This document shows positions 1,047 through 61,337 of a stretch of 64,000 nt of DNA, piece by piece. The translations under genes and the position numbers were made by a program. The notes under the pieces are model-generated. The model saw nothing but the letters and a program-made list of their open reading frames with translations. It was not told the origin of the DNA and searched no databases. Position 1 is the first letter of the stretch; the number at the start of each line of letters is the position of its first letter. The stretch is from Mesostigma viride (Eukaryota; Streptophyta; Mesostigmatophyceae; Mesostigmatales; Mesostigmataceae). The stretch lies in the NCBI GenBank assembly GCA_009746045.1, contig RPFO01000165.1, forward strand, positions 5,193,585-5,257,584, given 5' to 3'.

Positions 1047-4000
1047 CTACTGCCAGTGTGAACTCCACTGAGCGGGGGGGAACTCCTCAGCCAGCAACCA
1101 CACCCACCGCGGCACTTGCACCGCTAGAGCACGGTGCAGGCCCACGTAGTGGTCCACCGACTTGAACTGGCGCCAACGCCCGCGCTTCTGGATGTCTGGG
1201 AGTGAAACGCCCTGCAGGTAGTCGTACGTTGCCCCACCATGTCGCATGGAGTAGGGCGGAAACATCCCCCGCAGGCCCAGAACATCCCACGCCGCGTGCC
1301 ACCGACGAGAGAACTGGCTGTAGTTGAGGCTCCCAAACAAGGGCTCCTCGGGCTCCCGCCCAGCGCACAGGCGCTCGAGCACGTACAGCGAGAGGGGATC
1401 CTGCACCACCACCGCCTGTGCACCCCCCTTGGCTGTCTTGGGATCCCGCAGAAGAAGCGCGCCCAGTCCCCGCTGCCCCAGGCGACGGTCGCCGCGCAGC
1501 GCCACGTCCCCCACTCGGAGCTTGAAGGCCTCCCCGATGCGCAGGTATTGCTGGAAAGTGATGACGCACACGGCTGCTGCCATGGGCGCCCCCTGCCAGC
1601 GGAGGATCTGCACCACCAGGTAGAGCAGCTCCCACGGCACCGGATTGGGGCTATGCGTTTGCACGCGTCGCTGCCACCCGTACAGGAGCCGGCGGGCCTC
1701 GCGCCACCCCTGCACTTGGCTGGGGTAGTACAGTTGCAGCCCACACAGCGCCCTCATGCACATGGAACGCCCTGCTCCCCCTCCATCCTCGTAGACAGAC
1801 ACGAGCCACTCGCAGAACACGCTCTCCGCTTCCTCCGGCGGTACAGCACCATAGGGCTCAGCCCACAGGAGGTACGCGATCACTGCGCGATGGTAGCTGC
1901 GCAGGGTCGCGGGCAGCACGGTGCTCTCCAGCAGTTCCTGCCGCCCTCCCGGCCCCGGGTTACTCTCCACATCGCCATCGGCGGTAAGGTCCCGCACCCA
2001 CCGGCCCCGGCTGGGCGCGTCAGCGGGGTTTCGCTCCGAGCGGATGTACACCCAGTGGTACCTGGTGTTGCTGGCACAGCCCAGGGCGGCAGCGCGGCGG
2101 CACCACGTGTTGAGGCGGTAAGATGATGACCGCCCCTTCACCAGTGCGCCCAGAACGGCGGTGTTATCCACCAGCCGTACGTGCCGTCGCCCCCACCGGC
2201 CCGCGTGCGCAGCCCCCACTCCAGGCTCTGCACGGCTGCGCGCGCCTCTTTCTCATTGATGTGCGCCCCCGCGTCCCTCCACCGGTGTTTCACCGCCACA
2301 CGCCAGCGGGCGGTCGCCACCGCCCGATGTTCCCTCTCCCCCGTTCGCTCCACACCGACCTCTTCCGACCCGACACACAGAGTCTTCCACCCCTTCATTT
2401 CGCGGCAGTTGGACAAAGCCTTCACGTCTGCCTCTGCCAGACGGGCGTACACCACACCGGAGCCCCGGCTCGACGCGTCACTGGCCACGACGGTGGTGTC
2501 CAGTGGCTGGTTGCGCTGCGCATGCACCAGGGGAGCCAGGCAGACAGCCGCCCAGAGCTCCCGGCGCACACTTGCCCAGAGTTGGAAGCGTCCTCCCTTG
2601 CGGAGGGCCAGCACTTGGTGGAGCATCCTGTAGGCGTGGAACCAGGTGCTTAGCAGACTCCTGCGCAGCAGCTGGATCCATACCCAGCGTCCCAGTAGGG
2701 AGGCCAACTCATGGTAGCTTGCACGTCCCCGGGCCAGCACCGCCTCGGTGTCGTGGACCAGGAGGGCCAGTCGCTTCGCCGACGGCCACAAGCTCCCATC
2801 TTGGTGAAACTCGATGCCCAGGATCTCCACAGCTTGACCTCCGCGCCCGCTCGACCTTTTTCTCATTCACCACCAGGCCAGCTGGCGCGTAGCACTCGGT
2901 GCATGCGCGGTCCAGCAGCGCGTTCGCCTCCGCTGCGCTGCGCGCGTGTGTGGTGCCCAGGTCGTCGATCATGACCAACTGCGCCGGCCGAGGAGGGTCC
3001 TCGGGCAGCAGCTGCCAGTCAAGTTCGGCGGCCCCCACCAACTCCATCCACTCCCGTCCTCCCTCACGCACTGTGCGCACCCCGAGCTGATGCATCGGGA
3101 CGCTCACACTCAGCCCGGGGTTCAGCTTCCCCGGCCCGAACAGGGTCTGCATGTGCGCCACCTGCGCCAGCAGGACCGAGTGAGACCACCCCATCACCAG
3201 AACACGGAACCTGGGATAGAGCCGGCGGCGCTCCCCGGGCTGGCCGACCAGACTGGGGGCAGCGCGAACCACTCCCGCCACTCCGTTGGCACGGAGAAGC
3301 GGTAGTAGTACGTCTCCAGGTCCGTTTTGCTCGAGTAGCTGGGCGCGCCCCCTGCCATCTCGGCCACCGCCCCCACATCTGGCAGGTAACAGCCGCCAGG
3401 GGTGGGGAACTTGTCGTTGCTCTGCACCATGTTGCAGATGAGTCGCTGGCGCTGGGCTGACGGGTCCACCACCCCTGGATCGCGCTTGGGCACGCCGAAC
3501 AGGCCGTTGGTGACCGGGGGCTCCTCCTCGCTGTAGTCTGTCATCCCGGTCTCCGCCAGCCGCACGCTCAGGCGCGCGTACTCTGTGTCGCTCGCACAGC
3601 CATGCGTCACTCGCCTTCGACGCCCTGGCTGCACTACCTCCTCCTCCCTCAAAATATTTTTTATGTTGCCATATACCTCCCTCCACTGGGGGGGAGGCAG
3701 TCCATCAGCGGCACGCTGCCCGCCACTCCGCCCGCGGGCAGCGCAAGTCTCTCTGGGACAATCATTTCATATTGCCCGTCGGGCCCATAGGGCCCAGACT
3801 CAACGTCATGCACCAGGTCCTCTGCCGCTACGGCTCTCAGCCGGCGCTCATGGACCTGGGCGGCAATCTCCAGCCCTTGTAGGGCCGCCTGCTGGGCAGC
3901 GGTGCAGGGAGCCGTTGCCGTCGCCCCGCTAGTGCCGCGCCCTGGGGGCCCGCCGGCAGGCGTGGCCATTGCTGGCCCCGCCCCACACCCGGCCGCCCCC

Positions 4001-13576: not shown

Positions 13577-13581
13577 ACTGT

Positions 13582-14511
13582 CCATCTGGTTTCACGCCTA
13601 CCGCTTGCTGCAGCAAGTCCTGGTGCACAAGCGGGGCTGGAGCTATCGGCTGTGGGGTAGTGTAAGGGAAGAGCTCCAGGCTGCAATGGACTTGGCCCCG
13701 CTGGTGCATGCGCAGCGCGACCAGCCCCTGAGCTGCACCGTGGTGGCCACTGATGCGTCAACCCACGGTTCTGGGGTGGTGTACAGCCGGTGGGAGGCGC
13801 CTGCGGTGCGTGGCCTGTCCAACTGTCGGGAGCGGAAGGGCTGGAAGACGCTCTGTGTGGACTCTGAGACGGCCAGCGTGGAGCGCACAGGGGAGATTGA
13901 GCACCGAGCCATGGCAGCGGCGCAGTGGAGGACCGCTCTTGCCCACCGGTGGCTCGATCCCTCGGCCCACATCAACGAGAAGGAGATTCGTGCGGCTGTG
14001 CAAGGGATCGAGTGGGGCCTGCGCTCACAGGTTCACTGGCAGCAACGTCACGTGCGGCTGGTGGACAATTCGGCAGTTGTCGGTGCGCTCGTCAAAGGGC
14101 GTTCGTCGTCCTACCGGCTGGACGCCTGGTGCCGCCGGGCGATCGCGCTAGGGCTGGCCAGCAACACCCGCTACCACTGGGTGTATGTGAGGTCGAAGCG
14201 CAACCCGGCCGACGCGCCCAGTCGTGGTCGATGGGTGCGCAACCTCACTGCGGATGGCGACGTGGAGAGCAATCCGGGGCCACATGGGCGGCAGGAATTG
14301 CTGGAGGCCACTGTGCAGCCCAGCACGCTAGCTGCATATCACCGAGCGCTGAGGGCGTACGTGGAGTATGGTCAACCCCTCGCTCCCGTGGCCAAGACGG
14401 AGGCGGAAGGCGTCTTTTGTGAGTGGCTGGTCAGCGTGTATGAGGAAGGGGGAAGCCGGACCATGGTTGTGCGCGCATTATGCGGGCTGCAGCCCCAACG
14501 AGATTAAGGGG
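13582..14511 (+). pseudogene. Family B ORF2, RNase H and 2A part, copy 1
   Basis: Continues ORF2 after the TIR insertion: SIWFHAYRLLQQ, RNase H with VVATDASTHGSGVVY, INEKEIRAA, RLVDNSAVVGALVKGRSS and KRNPADAPSRG, then 2A at 14253-14282 and the linker before YR. The frame ends at TAA in QPQRD. The YR frame (NEIKGWYEARR) starts one base away. All four B copies here share this shift. Confidence 0.85.
14253..14282 (+). other. 2A-like ribosome-skipping motif
   Basis: Encodes DGDVESNPGP in B copy 1, between RNase H and YR. Confidence 0.85.
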
Positions 14512-17040: not shown

Positions 17041-17665
17041 CAAGCGGGGCTGGAGCTATCGGCTGTGGGGTAGTGTAAGGGAAGAGCTCCAGGCTGCAAT
17101 GGACTTGGCCCCGCTGGTGCATGCGCAGCGCGACCAGCCCCTGAGCTGCACCGTGGTGGCCACTGATGCGTCAACCCACGGTTCTGGGGTGGTGTACAGC
17201 CGGTGGGAGGCGCCTGCGGTGCGTGGCCTGTCCAACTGTCGGGAGCGGAAGGGCTCGAAGACGCTCTGTGTGGACTCTGAGACGGCCAGCGTGGAGCGCA
17301 CAGGGGAGATTGAGCACCGAGCCATGGCAGCGGCGCAGTGGAGGACCGCTCTTGCCCACCGGTGGCTCGATCCCTCGGCCCACATCAACGAGAAGGAGAT
17401 TCGTGCGGCTGTGCAAGGGATCGAGTGGGGCCTGCGCTCACAGGTTCACTGGCAGCAACGTCACGTGCGGCTGGTGGACAATTCGGCAGTTGTCGGTGCG
17501 CTCGTCAAAGGGCGTTCGTCGTCCTACCGGCTGGACGCCTGGTGCCGCCGGGCGATCGCGCTAGGGCTGGCCAGCAACACCCGCTACCACTGGGTGTATG
17601 TGAGGTCGAAGCGCAACCCGGCCGACGCGCCCAGTCGTGGTCGATGGGTGCGCAACCTCACTGCG

Positions 17666-17695
17666 GATGGCGACGTGGAGAGCAATCCGGGGCCA
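17666..17695 (+). other. 2A-like ribosome-skipping motif
   Basis: Encodes DGDVESNPGP in the truncated B copy. Confidence 0.85.
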
Positions 17696-24578: not shown

Positions 24579-25328
24579 TGATTGATCTTACGATCGGGAT
24601 TCCCTGATTTTGCCTGGGGGAGCGGAGGGATGGAGGTGCGCCGCTACCTTGGAGGCGCTACACCATTGCCCAGTGGTGCAAGTCGACATGCGGGAGCCAA
24701 ACGGGGTGGCCACGCCCTCTCTGGAGGGTCTGACAGCCTTGGATGGGCCTCAGATGTAGTTCGAACTAGTTCAAAGTTAGTACAGGTAGTACAAACTAGT
24801 TCAAACGAGTTCAATCTACTTCAACTAGTATCCAGGGACCCTCAAGATATGCCAGGTGGTTGCTGAACGGTTCTGGCATGACAGAACATGTGTGACATCA
24901 TAAAAATGTAGTACAATGTTGAAAAAAGTAGTATCAGGGTCCTAGATCTAGTACAGTAGTATTCTGAGGTCATTCTTACATGGAGCGCCGCGCCAGCGGG
25001 GCGCCGCACTTGCGTGTGTCACGGATGCAACGTTGATGCGATGTATTTCAAGGTGGTGATGGCTGCCAAGCCAGCTTATCAGTTTTCAACACAACTAGAG
25101 CAATACTTCACCGTTTTTGACAAAGTTGGTGTCAAACTAATCGTGAGACAATAGCCGACAACATTTTGACGGTTTTCGCACCAAGTTTTGACGGGTTTGC
25201 GCAACGGGAGTAAAAGTCCGCAAGGTAGAACTGAGTGACAAATTTTCAGTCCGAAATTTTTCTCAGTCTCCAAGATTGCGGAATATTGAGCCTAGTTGTG
25301 AGAAATTTCTTCATCTTTGAATTCTATA

Positions 25329-26825: not shown

Positions 26826-29247
26826 GGGGCAGGGGTGTGCTCCCGCTGCCAGTGAAGATGGTCCCCCCGCTCGACCGCAGCCGCCTGCGATCCAACCGCA
26901 GGCTGCAGCGCGCTCTGCGTGCCAGAGCAAGGCTGCGGTGTCAAGAGCGGGCCACAAGGGGCCTGAACTGGCTGTGGGGCAGGACCCGGGAACGGTCCGG
27001 TGGACCGGCGGTGCAGCAGCAGGCTATTACTGCGAGCCCCTGCACCGTCGCCCAAAGGGCCGCCCTACAAGGGATGGAGGATGCTGCCCGCGTCTACAAC
27101 CGCCGGCTTACCGCCGTAGCGGAGGCGACAGACACGGGGGACGCAGAGCCCGCGCCATACGGGCCGGGCGGTCAATACGAAATTATTGACCCGGAGAGGC
27201 TGGCACTGCCAAAAGGAGGAGCTGCAGGTAGTGTCAAGCTGCTGGACTGCCTGCCGGAGGCATGGCAGAGGACGTATGAGGACATAAACAACATTCTACA
27301 AAGATGCGACGCGGAGGCGGGGGCGTGGATGCGGCGGGGCCGGGTGTCTCATGGTTGTGCAAGCGATGCGGCGTACGCACGACTGAGCATCAGGCTGGCG
27401 GAGACGCGGATGATCGAGTACAGTGAGGAGGCGCCCCTGTGGTGAACGGCTGTTTTGCCGTCCCCAAGAAAGACCCCGGGGTTGTGGAGCCCAGCGAACG
27501 ACGGCAGCGGTTTATAGGGAATATGGTGCCGTGCAACCGGCGCTTCCTCAAGCCGCCTACCTGTTACCTGCCTAACTTGGGCGAGGTCGCTGAGCTGAGT
27601 GTGGGGGCGCCATGCTATTCGGGCAAGACAGACCTTGACACCTACTATTACCGGTTCGAGGTACCTGAGAGCTGGCGCCCCTATTTCTCGCTGCCCCCCG
27701 TGTGGTCCGATGAGGTCGGCCAGCTGGGACGACGGCGAAAGTTGTACCCCAGGTTCCGGGTCCTTGTCATGGGCTGGAGCCACTCGGTGGTCCTTGCACA
27801 GGTTGCCCACCTGCACTGTCTCTACGGGGCGGGGTGCTCGATGCCAAGAGAGGGCTGTCATATCCCATGCACTTGATGGGGGTGCGCACAGTGCGCGGGG
27901 ATGGCATGGACCGGCTGGAGTTGGTGGAGAGCGCAGCCAGTGCAGCGTGGCGGCTGCTGCCGGAGGATCCCCCACATCCCGCTCAGCTGGTCATGATCGA
28001 TGATCTGGGGGTCACCCATGGGCGGAGCGCGGAGGAGACCAACGCCGTGCTCACCAAGGCGTGCGAGGAGAGCTACGGTCCCAAGGGGTTGGTGGTCAAC
28101 GAGAAGAAGGTGGAGAGAGCTGAGGAGGGGCGCCCGGTGGAAATCTTGGGGATTGAGTTCTGCCAGGACGGGTCCATGCGGCCGAGCGCGGCCCGGATGG
28201 CGGCCTTGGTGCGCGACACGCAGGCAATGCTGGGGCGTGGACGGGCCACTTACCACCAACTGGCCTCGTTGCTGGGACGGTGGGTGTGGGTCCACTTGCT
28301 GCGTCGGGGTCTACTGTCCATCTGGTTTCACGCCTACCGCTTGCTGCAGCAAGTCCTGGTGCACAAGCGGGGCTGGAGCTATCGGCTGTGGGGTAGTGTA
28401 AGGGAAGAGCTCCAGGCTGCAATGGACTTGGCCCCGCTGGTGCATGCGCAGCGCGACCAGCCCCTGAGCTGCACCGTGGTGGCCACTGATGCGTCAACCC
28501 ACGGTTCTGGGGTGGTGTACAGCCGGTGGGAGGCGCCTGCGGTGCGTGGCCTGTCCAACTGTCGGGAGCGGAAGGGCTGGAAGACGCTCTGTGTGGACTC
28601 TGAGACGGCCAGCGTGGAGCGCACAGGGGAGATTGAGCACCGAGCCATGGCAGCGGCGCAGTGGAGGACCGCTCTTGCCCACCGGTGGCTCGATCCCTCG
28701 GCCCACATCAACGAGAAGGAGATTCGTGCGGCTGTGCAAGGGATCGAGTGGGGCCTGCGCTCACAGGTTCACTGGCAGCAACGTCACGTGCGGCTGGTGG
28801 ACAATTCGGCAGTTGTCGGTGCGCTCGTCAAAGGGCGTTCGTCGTCCTACCGGCTGAACGCCTGGTGCCGCCGGGCGATCGCGCTAGGGCTGGCCAGCAA
28901 CACCCGCTACCACTGGGTGTATGTGAGGTCGGAGCGCAACCCGGCCGACGCGCCCAGTCGTGGTCGATGGGTGCGCAACCTCACTGCGGATGGCGACGTG
29001 GAGAGCAATCCGGGGCCACATGGGCGGCAGGAATTGCTGGAGGCCACTGTGCAGCCCAGCACGCTAGCTGCATATCACCGAGCGCTGAGGGCGTACGTGG
29101 AGTATGGTCAACCCCTCGCTCCCGTGGCCAAGACGGAGGCGGAAGGCGTCTTTTGTGAGTGGCTGGTCAGCGTGTATGAGGAAGGGGGAAGCCGGACCAT
29201 GGTTGTGCGCGCATTATGCGGGCTGCAGCCCCAACGAGATTAAGGGG
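26815..29247 (+). pseudogene. Family B ORF2: RT-RNase H-2A, copy 2
   Basis: The linker reads from about 26815 to a stop at 27445; RT continues from 27439 in the next frame; a one-base deletion in GGGGCGGGGTGC (about 27832, copy 1 has GGGCGGGAGTGC) shifts to the 469-codon frame 27834-29243. Motifs: VNGCFAVPKKDPGVV, KTDLDTYYYRF, MGWSHSVVLAQ, MIDDLG (about 27993-28010), VNEKKVERAEEG, RNase H DAS, INEKE, LVDN and NPADAP, then 2A at 28989-29018. ORF2 overlaps the gag end in the -1 frame and has no clear ATG of its own there. Confidence 0.85.
28989..29018 (+). other. 2A-like ribosome-skipping motif
   Basis: Encodes DGDVESNPGP in B copy 2. Confidence 0.85.
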
Positions 29248-30147
29248 TCCCTGTGCATGTCTCAACTCGTTCACTCCATCATTGAGGGCTCCAGACATTA
29301 TTTTTTACAAAATACGTTTACGCACAAGAGACTCTTGGACCAAAGTCGCATAATTGGTGAATAAAGCATCTGCAGGCCCCCCCCGCCAGCTGATGCTGCC
29401 ATCTCACTCCCCTCAGGGTGGGTTGGGTGGGCTAATAAAAACGAATACCAGCCAGCACAGGCACACCTCGGCTGGTTATATGCCAGCACTTTTTCTCAGA
29501 CTTGGGCCGGCGGCGGCCCAGGTCCTTCTAATTCGGGTCGAAACACAATTCCGCGACCCATACAATATTCGTACACCATGCGAAGTGGCGGCGTACTTGC
29601 CCACTGTGGCGGATGCAAGTCCGGTACACCTGGTTTTGGCGCCAAAAGCACCCTTGGCCAGTTGTACTACAAGGAACCCATCCCTACTAATTCTTTTGAC
29701 ATTGTACTACGTTTAGTCTTGGTCTACTACACCCCAGTAGGTCCGTTCACCTCCTGAGCGTCCAGTGCTACGCCGAAGCACGTCAGCACTGGTTTGAACT
29801 AGAATGAACTAGTTTGAAGTAGTTTGAAGTAGACTGTACTACCCTGTAGGCCAAGTGAAGTACTTGGAACTACGTCCAAGTACTTAGAACCAGTTTACAA
29901 GTTACTTGTACGGACTTTCACCCTATTAGAGGGCAGATCTCGTACCACCACACTGGCGCCCCTTATTAAATTCCAGGGCCCTTATACATTGTGACTATAC
30001 TGCCCCTTATAAAAGACCAGGGCCTATTATAAAATATTAAATGCTCTATTTATTTTTTATATGTGCTGTCACCCAGCGGCGTCCCTCGCCTCCTTCGCTA
30101 CCTCCGCCCCGACAAATCAGGGAATCCAGATCGAGGGAGATCACCCA
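29248..30147 (-). mobile_element. Family C non-autonomous element, second copy
   Basis: About 900 bp, antisense, at exactly the same site as 14512-15416 and nearly identical (a CAGC indel near 29450 differs). The insertion therefore predates duplication of the train. Confidence 0.85.
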
Positions 30148-30810
30148 TGGTACGAGGCGCGTCGCTTGCTGGCCGGCTGGGCGCGACGAGTTCCCGTGCA
30201 GAGCCCTCACCCCGTCCCGTGGCAGCTACTGTACCTCGTGGCAAACATTCTTCGTGCACAAGGCTCGATATTAGCTGCCTGCTGCTGCATCATTGTTTTT
30301 CAGCAATACTTGCGCATCGGAGAAGCGTTCAAGCTTCGCGTGGGGGACGTGGCTCTGCGCGGGGACTTCCGCCTGGGGCCCAGTAACCAGGGTGCGCTGC
30401 TGCTACGCGACCCCAAGACAGCCAAGGGCCAGGCCCAGGCAGTGGTGGTTGTTGAGCCCCTTTCACTCACGTTGCTTGGCGCCCTGTGTGCTGGGCGGGC
30501 GCACGAGGAGCTGCTCTTTGGCGCACTCAGCTACAGCCGTTTCTTGCAGCGGTGGCACGCCGCGTGGGACCTCCTTGGCTTGCGGGGGATGTTTTCACCC
30601 TACAGCATGCGCCACGGGGGGGCCACCCATGACTACCTGCGCGGGGTACCAATCGCGGACATCCAAAAGCGTGGCCGGTGGCGCCAGTTTTCGTCCGTGG
30701 ACCATTACGTGGGGCTCCACCGCGCCCTGCAGGTGCGGGTGCCCCAGGTGGTGTGGGACCTCGCGGGCAGACTGCCCCCCCGTGACTGGCGTCGTCACTT
30801 TGGGCCGTAG
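30148..30810 (+). pseudogene. Family B tyrosine recombinase domain, copy 2
   Basis: Same sequence as 15417-16069, with LRIGE Arg, YSMRH Arg and DHYVGLH Tyr. Open from WYEARR to the stop, but separated from RH-2A by a frameshift and the C element. The B 3' noncoding region with its hairpin, AATAAA and terminus follows at 30811-31091. Confidence 0.85.
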
Positions 30811-31091
30811 ATTTCGGCCATACTTCGGTGAGGCGCACTCTAGCAGACACGCTAGGGCTTCACCAGCTGGAGGGTAAGGATGTGCCCTCCCATGGCTCCT
30901 GACGCGGTTTCCAGATGTACGGCCTGCGGCCAGGTTGGAGATGCGGGTCAAGTGGAAGCGGCGGCCAGGGACTGCCAAAAAAATATTTTATGTCTCTCTG
31001 TCTACTAAGTCCGGTCGGCTTCAACATATAGTGTAATAAACAAGTTCTGGTGCCCTTCAACCAGAAGTGGACCTAGGCAATGCACAGTGGA

Positions 31092-31781
31092 TGATTGATC
31101 TTACGATCGGGATTCCCTGATTTTGCCTGGGGGAGCGGAGGGATGGAGGTGCGCCGCTACCTTGGAGGCGCTACACCGTTGCCCAGTGGTGCAAGTCGAC
31201 ACGCGGGAGCCAAACGGGGTGGCCACGCCCTCTTTGGAGGGTCTGACAGCCTTGGATGGGCCTCAGATGTAGTTCGAACTAGTTCAAAGTTAGTACAGGT
31301 AGTACCAACTAGTTCAAACTAGTTCAATCTACTTCAACTAGTATCCAGGGACCCTCAAGATATGCCAGGTGGTTGCTGAACGGTTCTGGCATGACAGAAC
31401 ATGTGTGACATCATAAAAATGTAGTACAATGTTGAAAAAAGTAGTATCAGGGTCCTAGATCTAGTACAGTAGTATTCTGAGGTCATTCTTACATGGAGCG
31501 CCGCGCCAGCGGGGCGCCGCACTTGCGTGTGTCACGGATGCAACGTTGATGCGATGTATTTCAAGGTGGTGATGGCTGCCAAGCCAGCTTATCAGTTTTC
31601 CCCACCCACCCACCCTTTTCTGTTTTGTCTTGGGGGGTCAAGTGGAAGCGGCGGCCAGGGACTGCCAAAAAAATATTTTATGTCTCTCTGTCTACTAAGT
31701 CCGGTCGGCTTCAACATATAGTGTAATAAACAAGTTCTGGTGCCCTTCAACCAGAAGTGGACCTAGGCAATGCACAGTGGA
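31092..31781 (+). mobile_element. B-short non-autonomous element, second copy
   Basis: 690 bp, as 16351-17040, with the same C-rich linker and head-to-tail placement after B copy 2. Confidence 0.85.
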
Positions 31782-32406
31782 CAAGCGGGGCTGGAGCTAT
31801 CGGCTGTGGGGTAGTGTAAGGGAAGAGCTCCAGGCTGCAATGGACTTGGCCCCGCTGGTGCATGCGCAGCGCGACCAGCCCCTGAGCTGCACCGTGGTGG
31901 CCACTGATGCGTCAACCCACGGTTCTGGGGTGGTGTACAGCCGGTGGGAGGCGCCTGCGGTGCGTGGCCTGTCCAACTGTCGGGAGCGGAAGGGCTCGAA
32001 GACGCTCTGTGTGGACTCTGAGACGGCCAGCGTGGAGCGCACAGGGGAGATTGAGCACCGAGCCATGGCAGCGGCGCAGTGGAGGACCGCTCTTGCCCAC
32101 CGGTGGCTCGATCCCTCGGCCCACGTCAACGAGAAGGAGATTCGTGCGGCTGTGCAAGGGATCGAGTGGGGCCTGCGCTCACAGGTTCACTGGCAGCAAC
32201 GTCACGTGCGGCTGGTGGACAATTCGGCAGTTGTCGGTGCGCTCGTCAAAGGGCGTTCGTCGTCCTACCGGCTGGACGCCTGGTGCCGCCGGGCGATCGC
32301 GCTAGGGCTGGCCAGCAACACCCGCTACCACTGGGTGTATGTGAGGTCGAAGCGCAACCCGGCCGACGCGCCCAGTCGTGGTCGATGGGTGCGCAACCTC
32401 ACTGCG

Positions 32407-32436
32407 GATGGCGACGTGGAGAGCAATCCGGGGCCA
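32407..32436 (+). other. 2A-like ribosome-skipping motif
   Basis: Encodes DGDVESNPGP in the second truncated B copy. Confidence 0.85.
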
Positions 32437-34281: not shown

Positions 34282-34513
34282 TGATTGATCTTACGATCGG
34301 GATTCCCTGATTTTGCCTGGGGGAGCGGAGGGATGGAGGTGCGCCGCTACCTTGGAGGCGCTACACCGTTGCCCAGTGGTGCAAGTCGACATGCGGGAGC
34401 CAAACGGGGTGGCCACGCCCTCTCTGGAGGGTCTGACAGCCTTGGATGGGCCTCAGATGTAGTTCGAACTAGTTCAAAGTTAGTACAGGTAGTACCAACT
34501 AGTTCAAACGAGT
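34282..34513 (+). mobile_element. Family B 5' fragment, second copy
   Basis: As 19531-19762; cut by the A2 element that starts at 34514. Confidence 0.85.
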
Positions 34514-35079
34514 TGGTTGATCTTACGATCTGGATTCCCTGATTTGCGACTAAGGGGAGCGGAGTGCGAGTCGGTGCCGCTGCCTCATGGCTGATCTGCG
34601 AGAAATGCTCCTAGAAAGGGTGAAAGTCCCTGAAAATGACCTCTGGACTGTTTCCAAGTACTTGGATGTAGTTCAAAGTACTTCATTGGTACTAGAGGGT
34701 AGTACAATCTACTTCAAACTAGTTCAAACTAGCTCAGGCTAGTAAAGATTCGATCAGGTGTAGCACAACCTGCCTAGGAGGTGGTATGACCACCTGGGTT
34801 GAAGTAGACAGTGACTAAACCTAGTACAATGTCGAAAGAATCAGTACAAGTGGGTTCTTTGTAGTACAACTGGTCAGTGGCACCTGGGCGCCGCGCCAGT
34901 ACTGTACCGGACTTGCATTCGTCACCGTGCGCATGCAATGCAGCCAATTTATTGAGGAAGACATGGCGGCGCATGCTTTATCAGTTTTCAAATTCGTTTT
35001 TCGGTTTTCTAAGCCATCTTTTGGCCGTTTTACCTCGGAATAGATCCGTTTTAAAGCTAACGACTTCCTCTTTACGAAT
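34514..35079 (+). promoter_or_regulatory. Family A 5' noncoding region
   Basis: Holds the phased TTCAA array (about 34655-34743), a perfect hairpin AGGTGG-TATGA-CCACCT (34779-34795) just after a weaker CAGGT...ACCTG hairpin, a GTAGTACAA group, CACCTGGGCGCCGCGCC, two GCATGC sites, and TTATCAGTTTTC near 34980-34990 where A-short diverges. Gag starts at ATGATGGCTAGC. Confidence 0.65.
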
Positions 35080-36819
35080 ATGATGGCTAGCGGGGATGAA
35101 AACGCTAGCGAGACGGGGGATTTACCGCGCGGATTTGCGAGTCGTGTGGAGGAAATCTATGTGAACCATGGCAGGAACGCCTCAGCTGTCGCCTATTTTA
35201 TAGCGGCAGAACTCGGCTCTGAATACCCTAAAATATTGTTGCGTAGCTCGGAAAACAAGTTACGAAGTTTGGCAGAAAAGCTTCGGATCTTTGGGTTTGA
35301 AATCAATGGGTATGACACTCGTGAGGAGCTGGCGCAAAATATTTCAGCCAAGGTGGCGAAAATGTTAGCACAAGGTACAACAGGCATTACAAACGATGAG
35401 GAACCGAACGGGGACTCCTCAGAGGAGGACACTGATGTCGGGGAAGCTTTGGCGGGGCCAAAGAGGAGCAGGCGCAGGGATTTCGCCCCCCAGGTGCTAG
35501 CACAGTTGCTGGCGCACCAGGTGCCGTTTTTCCCGCCGTTTTTGGTCATATGGCGCCTGTCGTCGGAGGGGATGGCAGGAAACAGCTTGCAAATGCAGGG
35601 AGGAGCTTGGCAAACGCGGCTGGCGCTAGTTTTGGGGGAGGCGAGGGGGTGTCTGCAGTGCCACGCTCAGGCACTTTAAAAGCGGGCGCGCGCGGGGGAG
35701 GCAAGGAGGAGAAAGCAGGTCTCCCGCGCAGTGCCAAGGGGGACGGGGCGGCCGGAATGGGACTGAGCCCCGAAATGATGGCGCAGATGAATGCCCTCAT
35801 GGGGGGCTTCCAACAGCTGGGGATTGGCGGCGCCCAGGGGTTGGGAGCCGCAGTACGGGTGCCAGCACCCAGCGTGCAGGAAGGGGCGCATGGGGGGGGC
35901 GGGGGCAGCAGGGCCCAGCCCTGCCGGGTGGACAAGCGGGCCCCATGGGTACCCGGGCACACCGACAGGCGTGGAAAGAACGCAGGGCCCAGCGTACGCT
36001 TACCCAGGGCAGATGGGTGCAGCCTGGCCTCAGCCCTACCCACCAGCGGGTACCGCGTACGGTACCTGGGTGCCAGCGGCTGGAACCCCGTACCACATGG
36101 CGTTCGCAGCAGCCCAAGGTGGGCAGAGGAAACGGGAGAGCAAGCGGTCCAAGTGCCGCGAGTGCGGGCATCGGCACTGCCGGTGCACGTCCAGCGACAG
36201 CACGAGCAGCGACTCGGAGGGGAGCGGGCGAGGGCGCGCGGGTGGCCGGGGCACAGGTGGGAGGTTGACCGACCTGCCAGTTACCCGCGGGGTCAACCTG
36301 CTCGAGTACCTGCCGGCGGGGCGGGCGCTCAGCGTGGTGTGGGACGTGGAAGACCACAAGTACCACCAGCGCACGGCCCCCAAGCACATGGAGACCGCCA
36401 TACAGGGCCACAACGGCAACATGGTGGCCTGGCTGAACGTGCAAAGGGCCCCCGTGCTGCGCCAGCAGAAGGAGGGGACGGGACTTGGGTGGGCATCCAA
36501 GGAGAGGATGGAGCTGGCCCAGAACCTGTGCCACGTCTGGGATACGCTCAACAAGGAGCTCAGTCCCAACGTGTGCAGCGAGCTGGCGGGCGTGGAGTAC
36601 CTGGCGCTCTGCGTGGAGGCTCTCCTGCTGGTGGAGACCAGCGGGTCTTGGAACGCGTCCGGGTACATGCTGCCCTACCGGCCGGCAGGGGGTGTCCGCA
36701 CGCGGGCGGCTCGACGAGCGCTGCGGGCACACAAGAAGGAGCGCGATGCGTTGGCGTCGGCGCGAGGAAAGGAGGACAAGGCGGAGGGAGGAGTGGCGGG
36801 CTCTTCCCAGAAGAAGTGA
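35080..36819 (+). pseudogene. Family A2 Gag-like protein (two frameshifts)
   Basis: N part MMASGDENASETGDLPRGF, then NKLRSLAEKLRIFGFEI and REELAQNISAKVAKML (possible SAP-like helix pair). One G is missing in GGCGGGGCC (about 35455) and another indel lies in the G run near 35890, so three frames are needed. The C part (35791-36819) has the cysteine cluster KCRECGHRHCRC, a Ser/Gly patch and the core NLCHVWDTLNKEL ... GVEYLALCVEALLLVE, ending SSQKK. Confidence 0.8.
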
Positions 36820-39800
36820 GAGGGCGAGGTGTATTCCCCCTCCCAGAGGTGGCCATCAAGCCCCTCGACCGCGCGCGCCTACGGTCCCGACGTAGGTATC
36901 AGCGGGCCATGCGGCGGCGGGCCCTGCTCCTGCGCAGCGCGCGAATCGTGGATGGCCTCAACTGGTTGTGGAGGGGAGCACAGGAACCGCCTGAAACGGG
37001 TCCTGTCGGTGGCATGCGGATGGCTTTGCCCGCACCTGTTGCCCAGGAGCCCGCGGGTTGCGGTACCAGCGGGGTGTCCTTAGTGACCCCCTGCACTGCG
37101 GCCCAGCAGGCGGCCCTACAAGGGCTGGAGATTGCCGCCCAGGTCCATGAGCGCCGGCTGAGAGCCGTAGCGGCAGAGGACCTGGTGCATGACGTTGAGT
37201 CTGGGCCCTATGGGCCCGACGGGCAATATGAAATAATTGCCCCGGAGAGACTTGCGCTGCCCGCGGGCGGAGTGGCGGGCAGCGTGCCGCTGATGGACTG
37301 CCTCCCCCCCAGTGGAGGGAGGTATATGGCAATATAAAAAATATTTTGAGGGAAGAGGCAGCGCAGCCAGGGCGTCGACGGCGAGTAACGCATGGCTGTG
37401 CGAGCGACACGGAGTACGCGCGCCTGAGCGTGCGGCTGGCGGAGACCGGGATGACAGAGTATAGCGAGGAGGAACCACCGGTCACCAACGGCCTGTTCGG
37501 CGTGCCCAAGCGCGATCCAGGGGTGGTGGACCCGTCAGCCCAGCGCCAGCGACTCATCTGCAACATGGTGCAGAGCAACGACAAGTTCCTCACCCCTGGC
37601 AGCTGTTACCTGCCAGATGTGGGGGCGGTGGCCGAGATGGCCGGGGGCGCGCCCAGCTACTCGAGTAAAACGGACCTGGAGACGTACTACTACCGCTTCT
37701 CTGTGCCAACGGAGTGGCGGAAGTGGTTCGCGCTGCCCCCAGTCTGGTCAGACGAGGTCGGCCAACCAGGGGAGCGCCGCCGGCTCTATCCCAGGTTCCG
37801 TGTTCTGGTGATGGGGTGGTCCCACTCGGTCCTGCTGGCGCAGGTGGCGCACATGCAGACCCTGTTCGGGCCGGGGAAGCTGAACCCCGGGCTGAGTGTG
37901 AGCGTCCCGATGCATCAGCTCGGGGTGCGCACAGTGCGTGAGGGAGGACGGGAGTGGATGGAGTTGGTGGGGGCCGCCGAGCTTGACTGGCAGCTGCTGC
38001 CCGAGGACCCTCCTCGGCCGGCGCAGTTGGTCATGATCGACGACCTGGGCACCACACACGCGCGCAGCGCAGCGGAGGCGAACGCGCTGCTGGACCGCGC
38101 ATGCACTGAGTGCTACGCGCCAGCTGGCCTGGTGGTGAATGAGAAAAAGGTCGAGCGGGCGCGGGAGGGCCAAGCTGTGGAGATCCTGGGCATCGAGTTT
38201 CACCAAGATGGGAGCTTGTGGCCGTCAGCGAAGCGACTAGCCCTCCTCGTCCATGACACTGAGGCGGTGCTGGCCCGGGGACGAGCAAGCTACCATGAGC
38301 TGGCCTCCCTACTGGGACGCTGGGTATGGATCCAACTGCTTCGCAGGAGTCTGCTAAGCATCTGGTTCCATGCCTACAGGATGCTCCACCAAGTGCTGGC
38401 CCTCCGCAAGGGAGGACGCTTCCAACTCTGGGCAAGTGTGCGCCGGGAGCTCTGGGCGGCTGTCTGCCTGGCTCCCCTGGTGCATGCGCAGCGCAACCAG
38501 CCGCTGGACACCACCGTCGTGGCCAGTGACGCGTCGAGCCGGGGCTCCGGTGTGGTGTACGCCCGTCTGGCAGAGGCAGACGTGAAAGCTTTGTCCAACT
38601 GCCGTGAGATGAAGGGGTGGAAGACTCTGTGTGTCGGGTCGGAAGAGGTCGGTGTGGAGCGAACGGGGGAGAGGGAACATCGGGCGGTGGCGACCGCCCG
38701 CTGGCGTGTGGCGGTGAAACACCGGTGGAGGGACGCGGGTGCGCACATCAATGAGAAAGAGGCGCGCGCAGCCGTGCAGAGCCTGGAGTGGGGGCTGCGC
38801 ACGCGGGCCGGTGGGGGCGACGGCACGTACGGCTGGTGGATAGCACCGCCGTTCTGGGCGCACTGGTGAAGGGGCGGTCATCATCTTACCGCCTCAACAC
38901 GTGGTGCCGCCGCGCTGCCGCCCTGGGCTGTGCCAGCAACACCAGGTACCACTGGGTGTACATCCGCTCGGAGCGAAACCCCGCTGACGCGCCCAGCCGG
39001 GGCCGGTGGGTGCGGGACCTTACCGCCGATGGCGATGTGGAGAGTAACCCGGGGCCGGGAGGGCGGCAGGAGCTACTGGAGAGCACCGTGCTGCCCGCGA
39101 CCCTGCGCAGCTACCATCGCGCAGTGATCGCGTACCTTCTTTGGGCTGAGCCCTATGGTGCTGTACTGCCGGAGGAAGCGGAGAGCGTGTTCTGCGAGTG
39201 GCTCGTGTCTGTCTACGAGGATGGAGGGGGAGCAGGGCGTTCCATGTGCATGAGGGCGCTGTGTGGGCTGCAACTGTACTACCCCAGCCAAGTGCAGGGG
39301 TGGCGCGAGGCCCGCCGACTCCTGTACGGGTGGCAGCGACGCGTGCAAACGCATAGCCCCAATCCGGTGCCGTGGGAGCTGCTCTACCTGGTGGTGCAGA
39401 TCCTCCGCTGGCAGGGGGCGCCCATGGCAGCAGCCGTGTGCGTCATCACTTTCCAGCAATACCTGCGCATCGGGGAGGCCTTCAAGCTCCGAGTGGGGCA
39501 CGTGGCGCTGCGTGGCGACCGTCGCCTGGGGCAGCGAGGACTGGGCGCGCTTCTTCTGCGGGATCCCAAGACAGCCAAGGGGGGTGCACAGGCGGTGGTG
39601 GTGCAGGATCCCCTCTCGCTGTACGTGCTCGAGCGCCTGTGCGCTGGGCGGGAGCCCGAGGAGCCCTTGTTTGGGAGCCTCAACTACAGCCAGTTCTCTC
39701 GTCGGTGGCACGCGGCGTGGGATGTTCTGGGCCTGCGGGGGATGTTTCTGCCCTACTCCATGCGACATGGTGGGGCAACGTACGACTACCTGCAGGGCGT

Positions 39801-39960
39801 TTCACTCCCAGACATCCAGAAGCGCGGGCGTTGGCGCCAGTTCAAGTCGGTGGACCACTACGTGGGCCTGCACCGTGCTCTAGCGGTGCAAGTGCCGCGG
39901 TGGGTGTGGTTGCTGGCTGAGGAGTTCCCCCCCGCTCAGTGGAGTTCACACTGGCAGTAG
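36810..39960 (+). pseudogene. Family A2 ORF2: RT-RH-2A-YR polyprotein (two indels)
   Basis: Starts in the frame overlapping the gag end (EEVRGRGVFPLP). One C is lost in the C run near 37310 (CLPPQW becomes CLPPSG), and two bases near 38812. RT lies in 37346-38869: catalytic Asp in KTDLETYYYRF (37673-37675), MGWSHSV, the MIDD pair (38039-38044). RNase H starts at VVASDASSRGSG (Asp 38528-38530). The last ORF, 38788-39960, joins RH end, 2A and YR in one frame: RLVDS, NPADAP, DGDVESNPGP, LRIGE (Arg 39466-39468), RDPKTAKG, YSMRH (Arg 39763-39765), DHYVGLH (Tyr 39859-39861). It has no methyltransferase domain of the kind some DIRS elements carry. Confidence 0.85.
39028..39057 (+). other. 2A-like ribosome-skipping motif
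   Basis: Encodes DGDVESNPGP in an uninterrupted frame linking RNase H to YR. Skipping between the last Gly and Pro would release RT-RH from YR. Confidence 0.88.
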
Positions 39961-48510: not shown

Positions 48511-48589
48511 AGCAATACTCGTTTCTACCTGCGTGCGACTGCAGCGGCCGAGTGCTGCAACTTGCCTTCACGTCCCAGTCTTCACGTGA

Positions 48590-50721: not shown

Positions 50722-50879
50722 CTTCAGTTCCCGCAGGCAGCGTCGGCAATGTCGCAGTTTCCACAGGCATTGTCGGCACTGCAGCAGTTTTCGCAGGGAC
50801 CGTCGGCAGCAGAGCAGTTCCCGCAGGGATCATCGGTGGTGCAGCAGTTCTTTGTGAGTCATTCGTGTAGTGTTGAGTG

Positions 50880-56634: not shown

Positions 56635-57124
56635 TGGTTGATCTTACGATCTGGATTCCCTGATTTGCGACCAAGGGGAGCGGAGTGCAAGTCGGTGCCG
56701 CTGCCTCATGGCTGATCTGCGAGAAATGCTCATGGAAAGGGTGAAAGTCCCTGCAAATGACCTATGGACTGCTTCCAAGTACTTGGAAGTGGTTCAAAGT
56801 ACTTCAGTGGTACTACAGGGTAGTACAATCTACTTCAAACTAGTTCAAACTAGCTCAGGCTAGTAAAGATTCGTTCAGGTGTAGCACAACCTGCCTAGGA
56901 GGTGGTATGACCACCTGGGTTGAAGTAGACAGTGACTAAACGTAGTACAATGTCGAAAGAATCAGTACAAATGGGTTCTTTGTAGTACAACTGGTCAGTG
57001 GCACCTGGGCGCCGCGCCAGTACTGTACCGGACTTGCATCCGTCACCGTGCGCATGCAATGCAGCCAATTTATTGAGGAAGACATGGCGGCGCATGCTTT
57101 ATCAGTTTTTTACGCTTGCTGCTC

Positions 57125-60022
57125 ATGGTCCGGCTCGTGGAAGGCCTGAACTGGATGTGGGGGGGGACACGGGAACCGCCTGTGGGGGCGGCCGGGTGTG
57201 GGGCGGGGCCAGCAATGGCCACGCCTGCCGGCGGGCCCCCAGGGCGCGGCACTAGCGGGGCGACGGCAACGGCTCCCTGCACCGCTGCCCAGCAGGCGGC
57301 CCTACAAGGGCTGGAGATTGCCGCCCAGGTCCATGAGCGCCGGCTGAGAGCCGTAGCGGCAGAGGACCTGGTGCATGACGTTGAGTCTGGGCCCTATGGG
57401 CCTGACGGGCAATATGAAATGATTGTCCCAGAGAGACTTGCGCTGCCCGCGGGCGGAGTGGCGGGCAGCGTGCCGCTGATGGACTGCCTCCCCCCCCAGT
57501 GGAGGGAGGTATATGGCAACATAAAAAATATTTTGAGGGAGGAGGAGGTAGTGCAGCCAGGGCGTCGACGGCGAGTGACGCATGGCTGTGCGAGCGACAC
57601 AGAGTACGCACGCCTGAGCGTGCGGCTGGCGGAGACCGGGATGACAGAATACAGCGAGGAGGAGCCCCCGGTCACCAACGGCCTGTTCGGCGTGCCCAAG
57701 CGCGATCCAGGGGTGGTGGACCCGTCAGCCCAGCGCCAGCGACTCATCTGCAACATGGTGCAGAGCAACGACAAGTTCCTCACCCCTGGCGGCTGTTACC
57801 TGCCAGATGTGGGGGCGGTGGCCGAGATGGCAGGGGGCGCGCCCAGCTACTCGAGCAAAACGGACCTGGAGACGTACTACTACCGCTTCTCCGTGCCAAC
57901 GGAGTGGCGGGAGTGGTTCGCGCTGCCCCCAGTCTGGTCGGACGAGGTCGGCCAGCCCAGGGAGCGCCGCCGGCTCGGGGAGCGCCGCCGGCTCTATCCC
58001 AGGTTCCGTGTTCTGGTGATGGGGTGGTCTCACTCGGTCCTGCTGGCGCAGGTGGCGCACATGCAGACCCTGTTCGGGCCGGGGAAGCTGAACCCCGGGC
58101 TGAGTGTGAGCGTCCCGATGCATCAGCTCGGGGTGCGCACAGTGCGTGAGGGAGGACGGGAGTGGATGGAGTTGGTGGGGGCCGCCGAACTTGACTGGCA
58201 GCTGCTGCCCGAGGACCCTCCTCGGCCGGCGCAGTTGGTCATGATCGACGACCTGGGCACCACACACGTGCGCAGCGCAGCGGAGGCGAACGCGCTGTTG
58301 GACCGCGCATGCACCGAGTGCTACGCGCCAGCTGGCCTGGTGGTGAATGAGAAAAAGGTCGAGCGGGCGCGGGAAGGTCAAGCTGTGGAGATCCTGGGCA
58401 TCGAGTTTCACCAAGATGGGAGCTTGTGGCCGTCGGCGAAGCGACTGGCCTTCCTGGTCCACGACACCGAGGCGGTGCTGGCCCGGGGACGTGCAAGCTA
58501 CCATGAGTTGGCCTCCCTACTGGGACGCTGGGTATGGATCCAGCTGCTTCGCAGGAGTCTGCTAAGCACCTGGTTCCACGCCTACAGGATGCTCCACCAA
58601 GTGCTGGCCCTCCGCAAGGGAGGACGCTTCCAACTCTGGGCAAGTGTGCGCCGGGAGCTCTGGGCGGCTGTCTGCCTGGCTCCCCTGGTGCATGCGCAGC
58701 GCAACCAGCCGCTGGACACCACCGTCGTGGCCAGTGACGCGTCGAGCCGGGGCTCCGGTGTGGTGTACGCCCGTCTGGCAGAGGCAGACGTGAAGGCTTT
58801 GTCCAACTGCCGCGAAATGAAGGGGTGGAAGACTCTGTGTGTCGGGTCGGAAGAGGTCGGTGTGGAGCGAACGGGGGAGAGGGAACATCGGGCGGTGGCG
58901 ACCGCCCGCTGGCGTGTGGCGGTGAAACACCGGTGGAGGGACGCGGGGGCGCACATCAATGAGAAAGAGGCGCGCGCAGCCGTGCAGAGCCTGGAGTGGG
59001 GGCTGCGCACGCGGGCGCGGTGGGGGCGACGGCACGTACGGCTGGTGGATAACACCGCCGTTGTGGGCGCAGTGGTGAAGGGGCGGTCATCATCTTACCG
59101 CCTCAACACGTGGTGCCGCCGCGCTGCCGCCCTGGGCTGTGCCAGCAACACCAGGTACCACTGGGTGTACATCCGCTCGGAGCGAAACCCCGCTGACGCG
59201 CCCAGCCGGGGCCGGTGGGTGCGGGACCTTACCGCCGATGGCGATGTGGAGAGTAACCCGGGGCCGGGAGGGCGGCAGGAACTGCTGGAGAGCACCGTGC
59301 TGCCCGCGACCCTGCGCAGCTACCATCGCGCAGTGATCGCGTACCTCCTGTGGGCTGAGCCCTATGGCGCTGTACCGCCGGAGGAAGCGGAGAGCGTGTT
59401 CTGCGAGTGGCTCGTGTCTGTCTACGAGGATGGAGGGGGAGCAGGGCGTTCCATGTGCATGAGGGCGCTGTGTGGGCTGCAACTGTACTACCCCAGCCAA
59501 GTGCAGGGGTGGCGCGAGGCCCGCCGGCTCCTGTACGGGTGGCAGCGACGCGTGCAAACCCATAGCCCCAATCCGGTGCCGTGGGAGCTGCTCTACCTGG
59601 TGGTGCAGATCCTCCGCTGGCAGGGGGCGCCCATATGGCAGCAGCCGTGTGCGTCATCACTTTCCAGCAATACCTGCGCATCGGGGAGGCCTTCAAGCTC
59701 CGAGTGGGGGACGTGGCACTGCGCGGCGACCGTCGCCTGGGGCAGTGGGGACTGGGCGCGCTTCTTCTGCGGGATCCCAAGACAGCCAAGGGGGGTGCAC
59801 AGGCGGTGGTGGTGCAGGATCCCCTCTCGCTGTACGTGCTCGAGCGCCTGTGCGCTGGGCGGGAGCCCGAGGAGCCCTTGTTTGGGAGCCTCAACTACAG
59901 CCAGTTCTCTCGTCGGTGGCACGCGGCGTGGGATGTTCTGGGCCTGCGGGGGATGTTTCCGCCCTACTCCATGCGACATGGTGGGGCAACGTACGACTAC
60001 CTGCAGGGCGTTTCACTCCTAG
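57125..60022 (+). CDS. RT-RNase H-2A-YR polyprotein (longest ORF2)
   Basis: About 965 codons from ATG 57125 (MVRLVEGLNWMWGG), not the natural start because the 5' part is deleted. RT: VTNGLFGVPKRDPGVV, KTDLETYYYRF (Asp at 57862), an 18-bp in-frame duplication giving GERRRLGERRRL (about 57958-57995), MGWSHSVLLAQ, MIDD (58247-58252), VNEKKVERA. RNase H: DAS (58736), INEKE (58961-58969), LVDN (59048), NPADAP (59195). 2A at 59237-59266. YR begins, but a 2-base AT insertion at 59632 shifts the frame; YR boxes LRIGE, YSMRH and DHYVGLH continue in the frame 59581-60201. Confidence 0.85.
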   Translation: MVRLVEGLNWMWGGTREPPVGAAGCGAGPAMATPAGGPPGRGTSGATATAPCTAAQQAALQGLEIAAQVHERRLRAVAAEDLVHDVESGPYGPDGQYEMIVPERLALPAGGVAGSVPLMDCLPPQWREVYGNIKNILREEEVVQPGRRRRVTHGCASDTEYARLSVRLAETGMTEYSEEEPPVTNGLFGVPKRDPGVVDPSAQRQRLICNMVQSNDKFLTPGGCYLPDVGAVAEMAGGAPSYSSKTDLETYYYRFSVPTEWREWFALPPVWSDEVGQPRERRRLGERRRLYPRFRVLVMGWSHSVLLAQVAHMQTLFGPGKLNPGLSVSVPMHQLGVRTVREGGREWMELVGAAELDWQLLPEDPPRPAQLVMIDDLGTTHVRSAAEANALLDRACTECYAPAGLVVNEKKVERAREGQAVEILGIEFHQDGSLWPSAKRLAFLVHDTEAVLARGRASYHELASLLGRWVWIQLLRRSLLSTWFHAYRMLHQVLALRKGGRFQLWASVRRELWAAVCLAPLVHAQRNQPLDTTVVASDASSRGSGVVYARLAEADVKALSNCREMKGWKTLCVGSEEVGVERTGEREHRAVATARWRVAVKHRWRDAGAHINEKEARAAVQSLEWGLRTRARWGRRHVRLVDNTAVVGAVVKGRSSSYRLNTWCRRAAALGCASNTRYHWVYIRSERNPADAPSRGRWVRDLTADGDVESNPGPGGRQELLESTVLPATLRSYHRAVIAYLLWAEPYGAVPPEEAESVFCEWLVSVYEDGGGAGRSMCMRALCGLQLYYPSQVQGWREARRLLYGWQRRVQTHSPNPVPWELLYLVVQILRWQGAPIWQQPCASSLSSNTCASGRPSSSEWGTWHCAATVAWGSGDWARFFCGIPRQPRGVHRRWWCRIPSRCTCSSACALGGSPRSPCLGASTTASSLVGGTRRGMFWACGGCFRPTPCDMVGQRTTTCRAFHS
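59237..59266 (+). other. 2A-like ribosome-skipping motif
   Basis: Encodes DGDVESNPGP in the longest uninterrupted ORF2, about 14 residues after the last RNase H Asp. Confidence 0.88.
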
Positions 60023-60450: not shown

Positions 60451-60601
60451 CTTCCCCCTCTACAACCACTCCAGATGCGGCCGGGGACGGCCAGGTTGGA
60501 GATGCGGGTGTTATATGGTGGCAGCCGCCTGGGACTTGCGCACAATTTGCCAGTCTCTCGGTCTACCAAGGCCTGCAAGCGGCTTAAGCATATAATTTTG
60601 C

Positions 60602-60607
60602 AATAAA
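60602..60607 (+). terminator. Poly(A) signal AATAAA
   Basis: In GCAATAAACAAG; the cleavage point is inferred from the polyadenylated copy at 7097-7142. Confidence 0.7.
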
Positions 60608-60659
60608 CAAGTTCTGGTGCCTTCTCAAACAAAGTGAACCTGAAAGCATGCACAGAGGA

Positions 60660-61337
60660 TGGTTGATCTTACGATCTGGATTCCCTGATTTGCGACTAAG
60701 GGGAGCGGAGTGCGAGTCGGTGCCGCTGCCTCATGGCTGATCTGCGAGAAATGCTCCTGGAAAGGGTGAAAGTCCCTGCAAATGACCTCTGGACTGCTTC
60801 CAAGTATTTGGAAGTGGTTCAAAGTACTTCATTGGTACTACAGGGTAGTACAATCTACTTCAAACTAGTTCAAACTAGCTCAGGCTAGTAAAGATTCGTT
60901 CAGGTGTAGCACAACCTGCCTAGGAGGTGGTATGACCACCTGGGTTGAAGTAGACAGTGACTAAACGTAGTACAATGTCGAAAGAATCAGTACAAATGGG
61001 TTCTTTGTAGTACAACTGGTCAGTGGCACCTGGGCGCCGCGCCAGTACTGTACCGGACTTGCATCCGTCACCGTGCGCATGCAATGCAGCCAATTTATTG
61101 AGGAAGACATGGCGGCGCATGCTTTATCAGTTTTCCCCACCCACCCACCCTCTTTTGTTTGTTTGTTCGTTTGTTGTCTCTGGGGGTGTTGTATGGTGGT
61201 AGCCGCCTGGGACTTGCGCACAATTTGCCAGTCTCTCGGTCTACCAAGGCCTGCAAGCGGCTTAAGCATATAATTTTGCAATAAACAAGTTCTGGTGCCT
61301 TCTCAAACAAAGTGAACCTGAAAGCATGCACAGAGGA
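60660..61337 (+). mobile_element. A-short non-autonomous element, complete reference copy
   Basis: 678 bp. A 5' noncoding region to TTATCAGTTTTC, linker CCCCACCCACCCACCC (61135-61150) plus TCTTTTGTTTG repeats and TTGTCTCTGGG, then a family A 3' region from GGTGTTGTATGG, AATAAA at 61280-61285 and GCACAGAGGA. No ORF and no hairpin repeats. Confidence 0.9.

Follow-up and report, generated by a model that had tools for sequence, protein, structure and literature searches.

The window, that is, the whole 64-kb stretch of DNA analysed here from Mesostigma viride, a streptophyte of the Mesostigmatophyceae, contains four copies of a retrotransposon family A and three copies of a family B, both of which encode reverse transcriptase (RT), RNase H (RH) and a tyrosine recombinase (YR). 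A six-frame scan of the 64 kb retrieved seven NPGP tetrapeptides, all of them included in the sequence DGDVESNPGP and all located at the border between RNase H and recombinase. The seven copies of the preliminary description were thereby recovered at their positions, with no further NPGP in the window; from the six-frame amino-acid composition, 1.8 NPGP and 8.5e-5 D[VI]ExNPGP are expected by chance in 64 kb. Scanning and codon comparison delimit the StopGo/2A segment of family B, WVRDLTADGDVESNPGP, at 39007..39057 (+; motif 4 as defined in the available part of PMC12846837), with a second copy at 59216..59266 (+) and a third one at 1950..2000 (-). The corresponding segment of family A, WVRNLTADGDVESNPGP, is found on the plus strand at 28968..29018, at 14232..14282 (duplication partner of the former), at 17645..17695 and at 32386..32436 (duplication partner of the 17645 copy). 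Only two DNA versions of the 20-codon (60-base) segment exist, the first being common to all four A copies and the second to all three B copies, and positions 13577-22067 are a 99.3% copy of 28313-36828. The seven copies are therefore not seven independent witnesses.

The reading frames surrounding the segment are interrupted to various degrees. In family B, an open frame at 38755..39960 (+) covers the end of RNase H, the 2A segment and the whole tyrosine recombinase, and Pfam Phage_integrase was detected in it with an E value of 4.3e-4 and 20.5 bits, below the curated cut-off of 27.1. The downstream product predicted for StopGo is a recombinase of 301 residues with proline as its first residue (39055..39957, +). 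The RT-RNase H frame of the same copy (37232..38869, +) is out of frame with 38755-39960, the frame change being located near 38806. A second family B copy displays RT, RNase H, 2A and the start of YR in one frame (57077..60022, +) up to a shift of frame that lies inside YR, near 59620-59650; the third one (1047..2252, -) is limited, like 38755-39960, to the RNase H end, 2A and YR. In family A, the frame 27714..29243 (+) combines part of RT with RNase H, 2A and the YR start and stops after ALCGLQ, and the remaining YR is found beyond an insertion at 30013..30810 (+). All four family A frames stop shortly past ...ALCGLQ. An insertion of about 0.9 kb lies in the recombinase frame right after ALCGLQ in two A copies (14493-15406 and 29229-30147), and a frame change occurs at about the same place in the other two (17907-17998 and 32648-32739). 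The single frame initially reported for RNase H and recombinase holds for the pieces then cited, but every window copy is broken somewhere in RT-RH-2A-YR and the number of intact frames in the window is zero.

Upstream of the pol frame, the interval 34514..36819 (+) comprises a family B A1 repeat (34514-34989) and a gag-like frame with its stop at 36819. The TGA of the gag-like frame precedes the conserved pol start by about 20 bases (36817-36837 in B, 26823-26843 and 10320-10340 in A). In both families pol starts in the -1 frame relative to the gag-like frame, without a nearby ATG, and no slippery heptamer XXXYYYZ was found between gag and pol in the three stretches inspected. At 48566-50062 and 50825-52700 the window contains tandem arrays, whose periods are about 149 bases and 8 bases.

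Repeat layout and class of the elements

The coding part is flanked by split direct repeats in the order A1 / B1-A2-B2. In family B, the 5' split direct repeat A1 (56635..57109) is matched by A2 (60660..61135, 98.7% to A1), and B1 (60503..60612) by B2 (61181..61290, 97.3% over 110 nt). In family A, A1 (24579..25087) and A2 (31092..31600) are 99.0% identical, and B1 and B2 extend at least over 30945..31030 and 31635..31720, with 100% identity over 86 nt; all these repeats are on the plus strand. A search for the empty site of a solo repeat, using the joined flanks, returned no single uninterrupted site. RT and RNase H were recognized by homology to P0011 and P0015, two proteins carrying Pfam RT (PF00078), and by the motifs DDL and NPADAPSR, no Pfam family being found in the window protein P0001 itself. 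The tyrosine recombinase expected of a YR retrotransposon of the DIRS order is present, and a Pfam scan of eight proteins gave no methyltransferase match, RT being missed by the same scan. The Mesostigma viride elements are tyrosine-recombinase retrotransposons with split direct repeats, a PAT-like trait of families A and B, and the location of the internal repeat copies downstream of YR is Ngaro-like.

The DIRS-like affiliation (DIRS1 type) initially assigned to the elements had to be abandoned in view of the A1 / B1-A2-B2 repeats and of the absence of inverted terminal repeats. DIRS1 has its YR and pol in separate frames and displays inverted terminal repeats along with internal complementary regions, in contrast to the split direct repeats and the one frame of the Mesostigma elements (DIRS1 as described in the available part of PMC3266345). 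Kangaroo was rejected as well, since its recombinase is encoded on the opposite strand and YR lies here in the RT-RH frame. Ngaro, PAT and VIPER are similar to the Mesostigma elements in their combination of RT-RH with YR and in their A1 / B1-A2-B2 repeats, according to the accessible parts of PMC6681497, PMC4157794, PMC3783388 and PMC3266345. The searches made of the open-licence PMC literature revealed no 2A with these three groups, whereas the Mesostigma elements carry a putative one. The location of YR in the RT-RH frame, regarded at first as a special feature, was confirmed in relatives but is already known from fungal Ngaro, where YR can share that frame in the same manner (excerpts of PMC3783388).

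Relatives and further families

Protein searches, in which the roughly 8000 candidates with most words in common were scored, provided 19 relatives (P0002-P0020). NPGP is located between RNase H and YR in all eight relatives that reach this border on the YR side (P0002-P0009). It is preceded by DLTADG-DVES in P0002, NLTADG-DVES in P0009, DLTSDG-DVEA in P0003, DLTQDG-DVES in P0005, DLTQDG-DVEA in P0006, DLAADG-DVER in P0008, DLTAE-GIHP in P0004 and NVTQAG-DVET in P0007, where the frame continues for about another 20 residues before it ends. Unbroken RT-RH-2A-YR single frames are found in P0005 (1045 aa), P0006 (1054 aa) and P0008 (1029 aa), as well as at the genome loci L005, L007, L013 and L014. 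Three of them (P0003, P0004, P0009) are gene models of Mesostigma, and a fourth one, P0002, shares 99% identity with the query and possibly originates from this genome, too; these four accordingly stand for other families or copies and not for other hosts. Between P0009 (Mesvir1, EukProt) and the A copy at 13578-16066, the identity is 99.3% over 305 residues and 99.5% over 220.

Five distant relatives (P0011, P0015-P0017 and P0020, the latter from Prorocentrum) possess the RNase H end without NPGP, which counts against StopGo. Among them, the RT-RH proteins P0015-P0017, which are 29-30% identical, terminate at a distance of 9-10 residues from the first residue of NPAD.PSR, and P0011 and P0020 at distances of 30 and 95 residues, respectively. 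The frames of P0015-P0017 stop where the Mesostigma lineage has its putative 2A, a point in favor of StopGo. The RNase H end was not found in P0010, P0012-P0014, P0018 and P0019. All 2A rows fall on one side of a branch in an RT-RH tree that included only relatives found by the searches, with weak support (63/27) and long branches, and no weight was placed on this tree. P0010 (Mesvir1 Mv03253) joins an RNase III domain (PF00636) to a family B gag-pol and is possibly an annotation chimera. Patterns were matched in IMG/VR and GTDB genome contigs, and none of these matches was confirmed as a relative.

Genome searches were performed on the 440 Mb assembly containing the window (C1912:5193585-5257584). 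The degenerate DNA of D[VI]ExNPGP gave 177 matches (86 forward and 91 reverse) and its reversed control none; among the 100 matches listed of the 177, 66 correspond to the A or B version and 16 to a family C version, family C being characterized by DVEA. Counts from protein queries are lower bounds, the best 80-106 candidates or so being scored for each query. The 2A-YR query returned at least 104 match rows, 66 of the 104 in stop-to-stop frames of at least 700 aa and 24 in frames of at least 900 aa. On the contigs with a complete motif listing (up to C1579), and with two rows behind the border excluded, D[VI]ExNPGP is exact in 51 of the 51 homology rows that span the border; the motif does not change freely among these matches, an outcome that had been named as adverse to the claim. 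The fetched loci contain 45 RNase H ends, and NPGP follows in 44 cases. Ten of these ends belong to loci that had been selected for the motif itself and two to loci fetched twice; without them, NPGP follows in 32 out of 33. The exception, the YR copy L054, displays NPGRAP instead of NPGP and counts against StopGo. At L047 no RNase H end was found, yet DGDVEANPGP lies ahead of its YR.

Family D, represented by P0004 (GIHPNPGP), comprises at least 78 copies with 100% identity to the query over 557 residues, and the DNA identity ranges from 99.7 to 100% in the 66 pairs formed by twelve fetched copies. This family (L029-L043) is a single-frame YR retrotransposon that has multiplied in a very recent burst. 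Family E, at about 63% identity to P0003, yielded dozens of rows of equal score, many of them in 995-aa frames, and the core DVHPNPGP is present in seven of the eight fetched pieces (L048-L055). On their sequences, family D looks recently active and family E is probably so; their peptides would therefore not be relics.

Published StopGo rules, codon constraint and the proposed function

StopGo has been described as mainly viral, with few cellular cases. Six upstream StopGo classes were defined by Li et al. 2026 (PMC12846837). In the available part of that paper, motifs 1 and 4 have WV(R/K)DLTx[acidic]G in common with an offset of one residue, motif 4 being paired with p12=D and p15=S and motif 1 with p12=G and p15=P. 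In rabbit reticulocyte lysate, skipping was almost 100% for representatives of both motifs, and the activity of a variant with p14=H exceeded 95%, in each case with flanks other than those of Mesostigma (same excerpts of PMC12846837). The window sequence GRWVRDLTADG-DVESNPGP (RGRWVRDLTADG-DVESNPGP) corresponds to motif 4 in every one of the respects given, a match that we regard as the strongest single reason to expect activity. The core (D/G/C/N)(V/I)ExNPGP is exact in families A, B, C and F, and the upstream hexamer belongs to motif 4 in A, B and C and to motif 1 in D. In the latter family, AGWVRDLTAEG-IHPNPGP displays the one-residue shift, p12=G and p15=P of motif 1 together with p14=H. 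The presence of such StopGo-type peptides in families D and E counts in favor of StopGo. The particular coupling of motif 1 with p14=H counts against it, as do the hexamer region PNVTQAG of P0007 and the hexamer of family E, where P replaces R/K and C replaces the acidic residue of motif 4 (WVPDLTRCG-DVHPNPGP or WIPDLTRCG-DVHPNPGP, with p14=H). The StopGo/2A peptides of RNA viruses share with the Mesostigma peptides the core (D/G)(V/I)(E/H)xNPGP, WVRDLTx[acidic]G, the one-residue offset and the p12/p15 pairing, but the latter are encoded by a retrotransposon of a cellular organism, a streptophyte green alga (excerpts of PMC12846837). The same excerpts state that there is no evidence of natural StopGo use by plant viruses, and neither DIRS nor recombinase occurs as a term in the main text of PMC12846837 as available.

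The elements very probably possess a single RT-RH-YR frame in which StopGo at the RNase H/recombinase border provides a free recombinase. RT, RNase H and recombinase would be translated from one frame, with the StopGo peptide exactly between the last two. When W-V-(R/P)-D-L-T-x-x-G-D-V-(E/H)-x-N-P-G occupies the exit tunnel, the ribosome would release the chain at Gly and then resume at Pro. The products would be an RT-RNase H with a short 2A tail followed by a free recombinase beginning with Pro, the second being made only after the first, and the peptide would replace the separate YR frame of other YR elements. Since YR retrotransposons are devoid of an aspartic protease (as stated in excerpts of PMC3783388), StopGo would be the evident means to separate domains encoded in one frame. 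Both skipping in Mesostigma and selection for a free recombinase are what we infer from the sequences. The one polyprotein from which 2A frees the recombinase, as initially proposed, is favored by the frame, the motif fit, the conservation, the selection and the modelled fold; its DIRS1-like setting is the part that was discarded.

An incomplete reaction might be considered as well, in which partial StopGo leaves some fused RT-RH-YR and this form is needed, integration being coupled to cDNA synthesis. Partial StopGo with two useful products has been described for sea urchin proteins (excerpts of PMC12846837), and the off-consensus hexamers of family E and P0007 are in line with it. The representatives of motifs 4 and 1 are nevertheless almost fully active in the lysate (PMC12846837, same part) and no use of the fused form is indicated by the data, so that this explanation is considered unlikely.

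The codon comparison between families A and B, a check proposed in the preliminary description, supports the release of a free recombinase. In the 20 codons ending with NPGP, Sd is 11, Nd is 1 and dN/dS is 0.011, compared with a dN/dS of 0.157 and a pS of 0.66 for the whole alignment (465 codons), 0.129 for the 30 codons before the segment and 0.64 for the 30 codons after it. Ten codons alone prove little, because it is not rare in this alignment for a window of 10 codons to lack any amino-acid change (23 of 456). Among the 446 windows of 20 codons, 23 contain no more than one amino-acid change, and 10 of these include at least 11 synonymous codons as well; the 2A segment is among the most constrained windows and is not unique. 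Between E1 (L048) and E2 (L049), the 17 motif codons show 12 synonymous and no nonsynonymous changes, and the following 90 YR codons 38 and 27, respectively. From GP to LLE, the linker varies both in its sequence and in its length (EGARRPRDLA versus SGGRPRTAGEMR) while the peptide is kept, which indicates that the constraint does not extend beyond the Pro at the skip site. The product from this Pro onward was modelled as a complete Cre-like recombinase fold, aligned from residue 1. The AlphaFold model of the full 1045-aa P0005 (pLDDT 40.9) was not used, the recombinase alone giving a usable model, and a PDB sequence search returned no match.

The same data bear on the possibility that the peptide is a structural linker or an RNase H tail, and that a fused RT-RH-YR works without any skipping. 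Such a function would be compatible with the location of RT-RH and YR in a single frame and with the RNase H end just upstream, which is conserved as well. The tolerated changes are nevertheless those of StopGo, namely a free p15 (S, A, T, R, P) and E or H at p14, and G-I replaces D-V along with the one-residue shift of DLT, as in StopGo. Moreover, the variable residues right behind GP are those that a linker would need. A linker function is therefore held to be improbable. Mere descent, by which the copies would have the peptide in common as recent duplicates, fits the two DNA versions and the large segmental duplication of the window but deserves hardly any credence, since the peptide was kept while synonymous sites changed heavily between A and B, and the synonymous changes at 12 of the 17 motif codons of E1 and E2 refute it between families.

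Place among mobile elements and distribution in the genome

Peptides of the 2A type are already known in non-LTR retrotransposons, in L1Tc (Heras 2006) and in APE-type elements (Odon 2013), both as cited in the accessible parts of PMC11512398 and PMC12846837. These are likewise mobile elements with an in-frame 2A, but they belong to a different order, and the putative 2A of Mesostigma is placed at the junction of RNase H with a tyrosine recombinase (comparison based on the same parts of PMC11512398 and PMC12846837). The main text of the Mesostigma genome paper (PMC6947507), as far as available, mentions neither DIRS nor tyrosine recombinase. No link of 2A to DIRS or YR retrotransposons was found among the papers listed by the searches of the open-licence PMC literature; Rao et al. 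2025 lies outside this scope and may list such peptides. That work (Cell Rep) is reportedly a systematic survey of 2A in eukaryotes and viruses.

The same border would be occupied by StopGo in several diverged YR families of the streptophyte lineage. Their natural variants, including the rare p14=H, appear to obey newly published sequence rules and could serve as an independent cellular test set. The arrangement also offers a ready account of how a single-frame YR element may obtain its recombinase in free form, and its peptides are candidates for use in co-expression, in green algae as well as in plants. A broader and decidedly tentative extension, which we consider possible and rather doubtful, is that the whole YR clade of streptophyte algae swapped a separate YR frame for StopGo, tolerated switches from motif 4 to motif 1 and between E and H at p14 while remaining mobile, and tunes the ratio of free to fused recombinase by the strength of the peptide, several element types of the Mesostigma genome making use of StopGo. 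If this were true, the cellular mobile elements of the green-plant lineage would have an established recoding device in StopGo.

The copies of families A and B are gathered in one cluster on each contig, with at least 104 rows on 27 contigs and a span of at most 170 kb on each. One outlier of 79% identity on C1106 is the exception, and four of the 27 contigs carry a single row. Even contigs of 7-14 Mb show this clustering. On 14 contigs, the exact A/B motif matches are clustered in the same way, with spans up to 113 kb among the matches listed; families C, D and E are dispersed among the matches listed. DIRS1 of Dictyostelium is also a YR retrotransposon that is clustered in the genome (excerpts of PMC3266345 and PMC5633606), and DIRS-1 is said to form 50% of the centromere sequence in this organism (excerpts of PMC5633606). 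The A/B clusters, including the window, may be regarded as candidate centromeres built of YR retrotransposons.

StopGo-like peptides of motif 4 were also observed in at least three frames that showed no recombinase sequence. They read KRDLTKDGDVESNPGP at L010, L017, L025 and L028, WEKDLTADGDVEANPGP at L018, L026 and L027, and WDLTRDGDVEPNPGP at L023. Inspection by eye revealed a LINE-type reverse transcriptase frame elsewhere in locus L017, and a similar upstream stretch ending with YWRA in L017 and L023.
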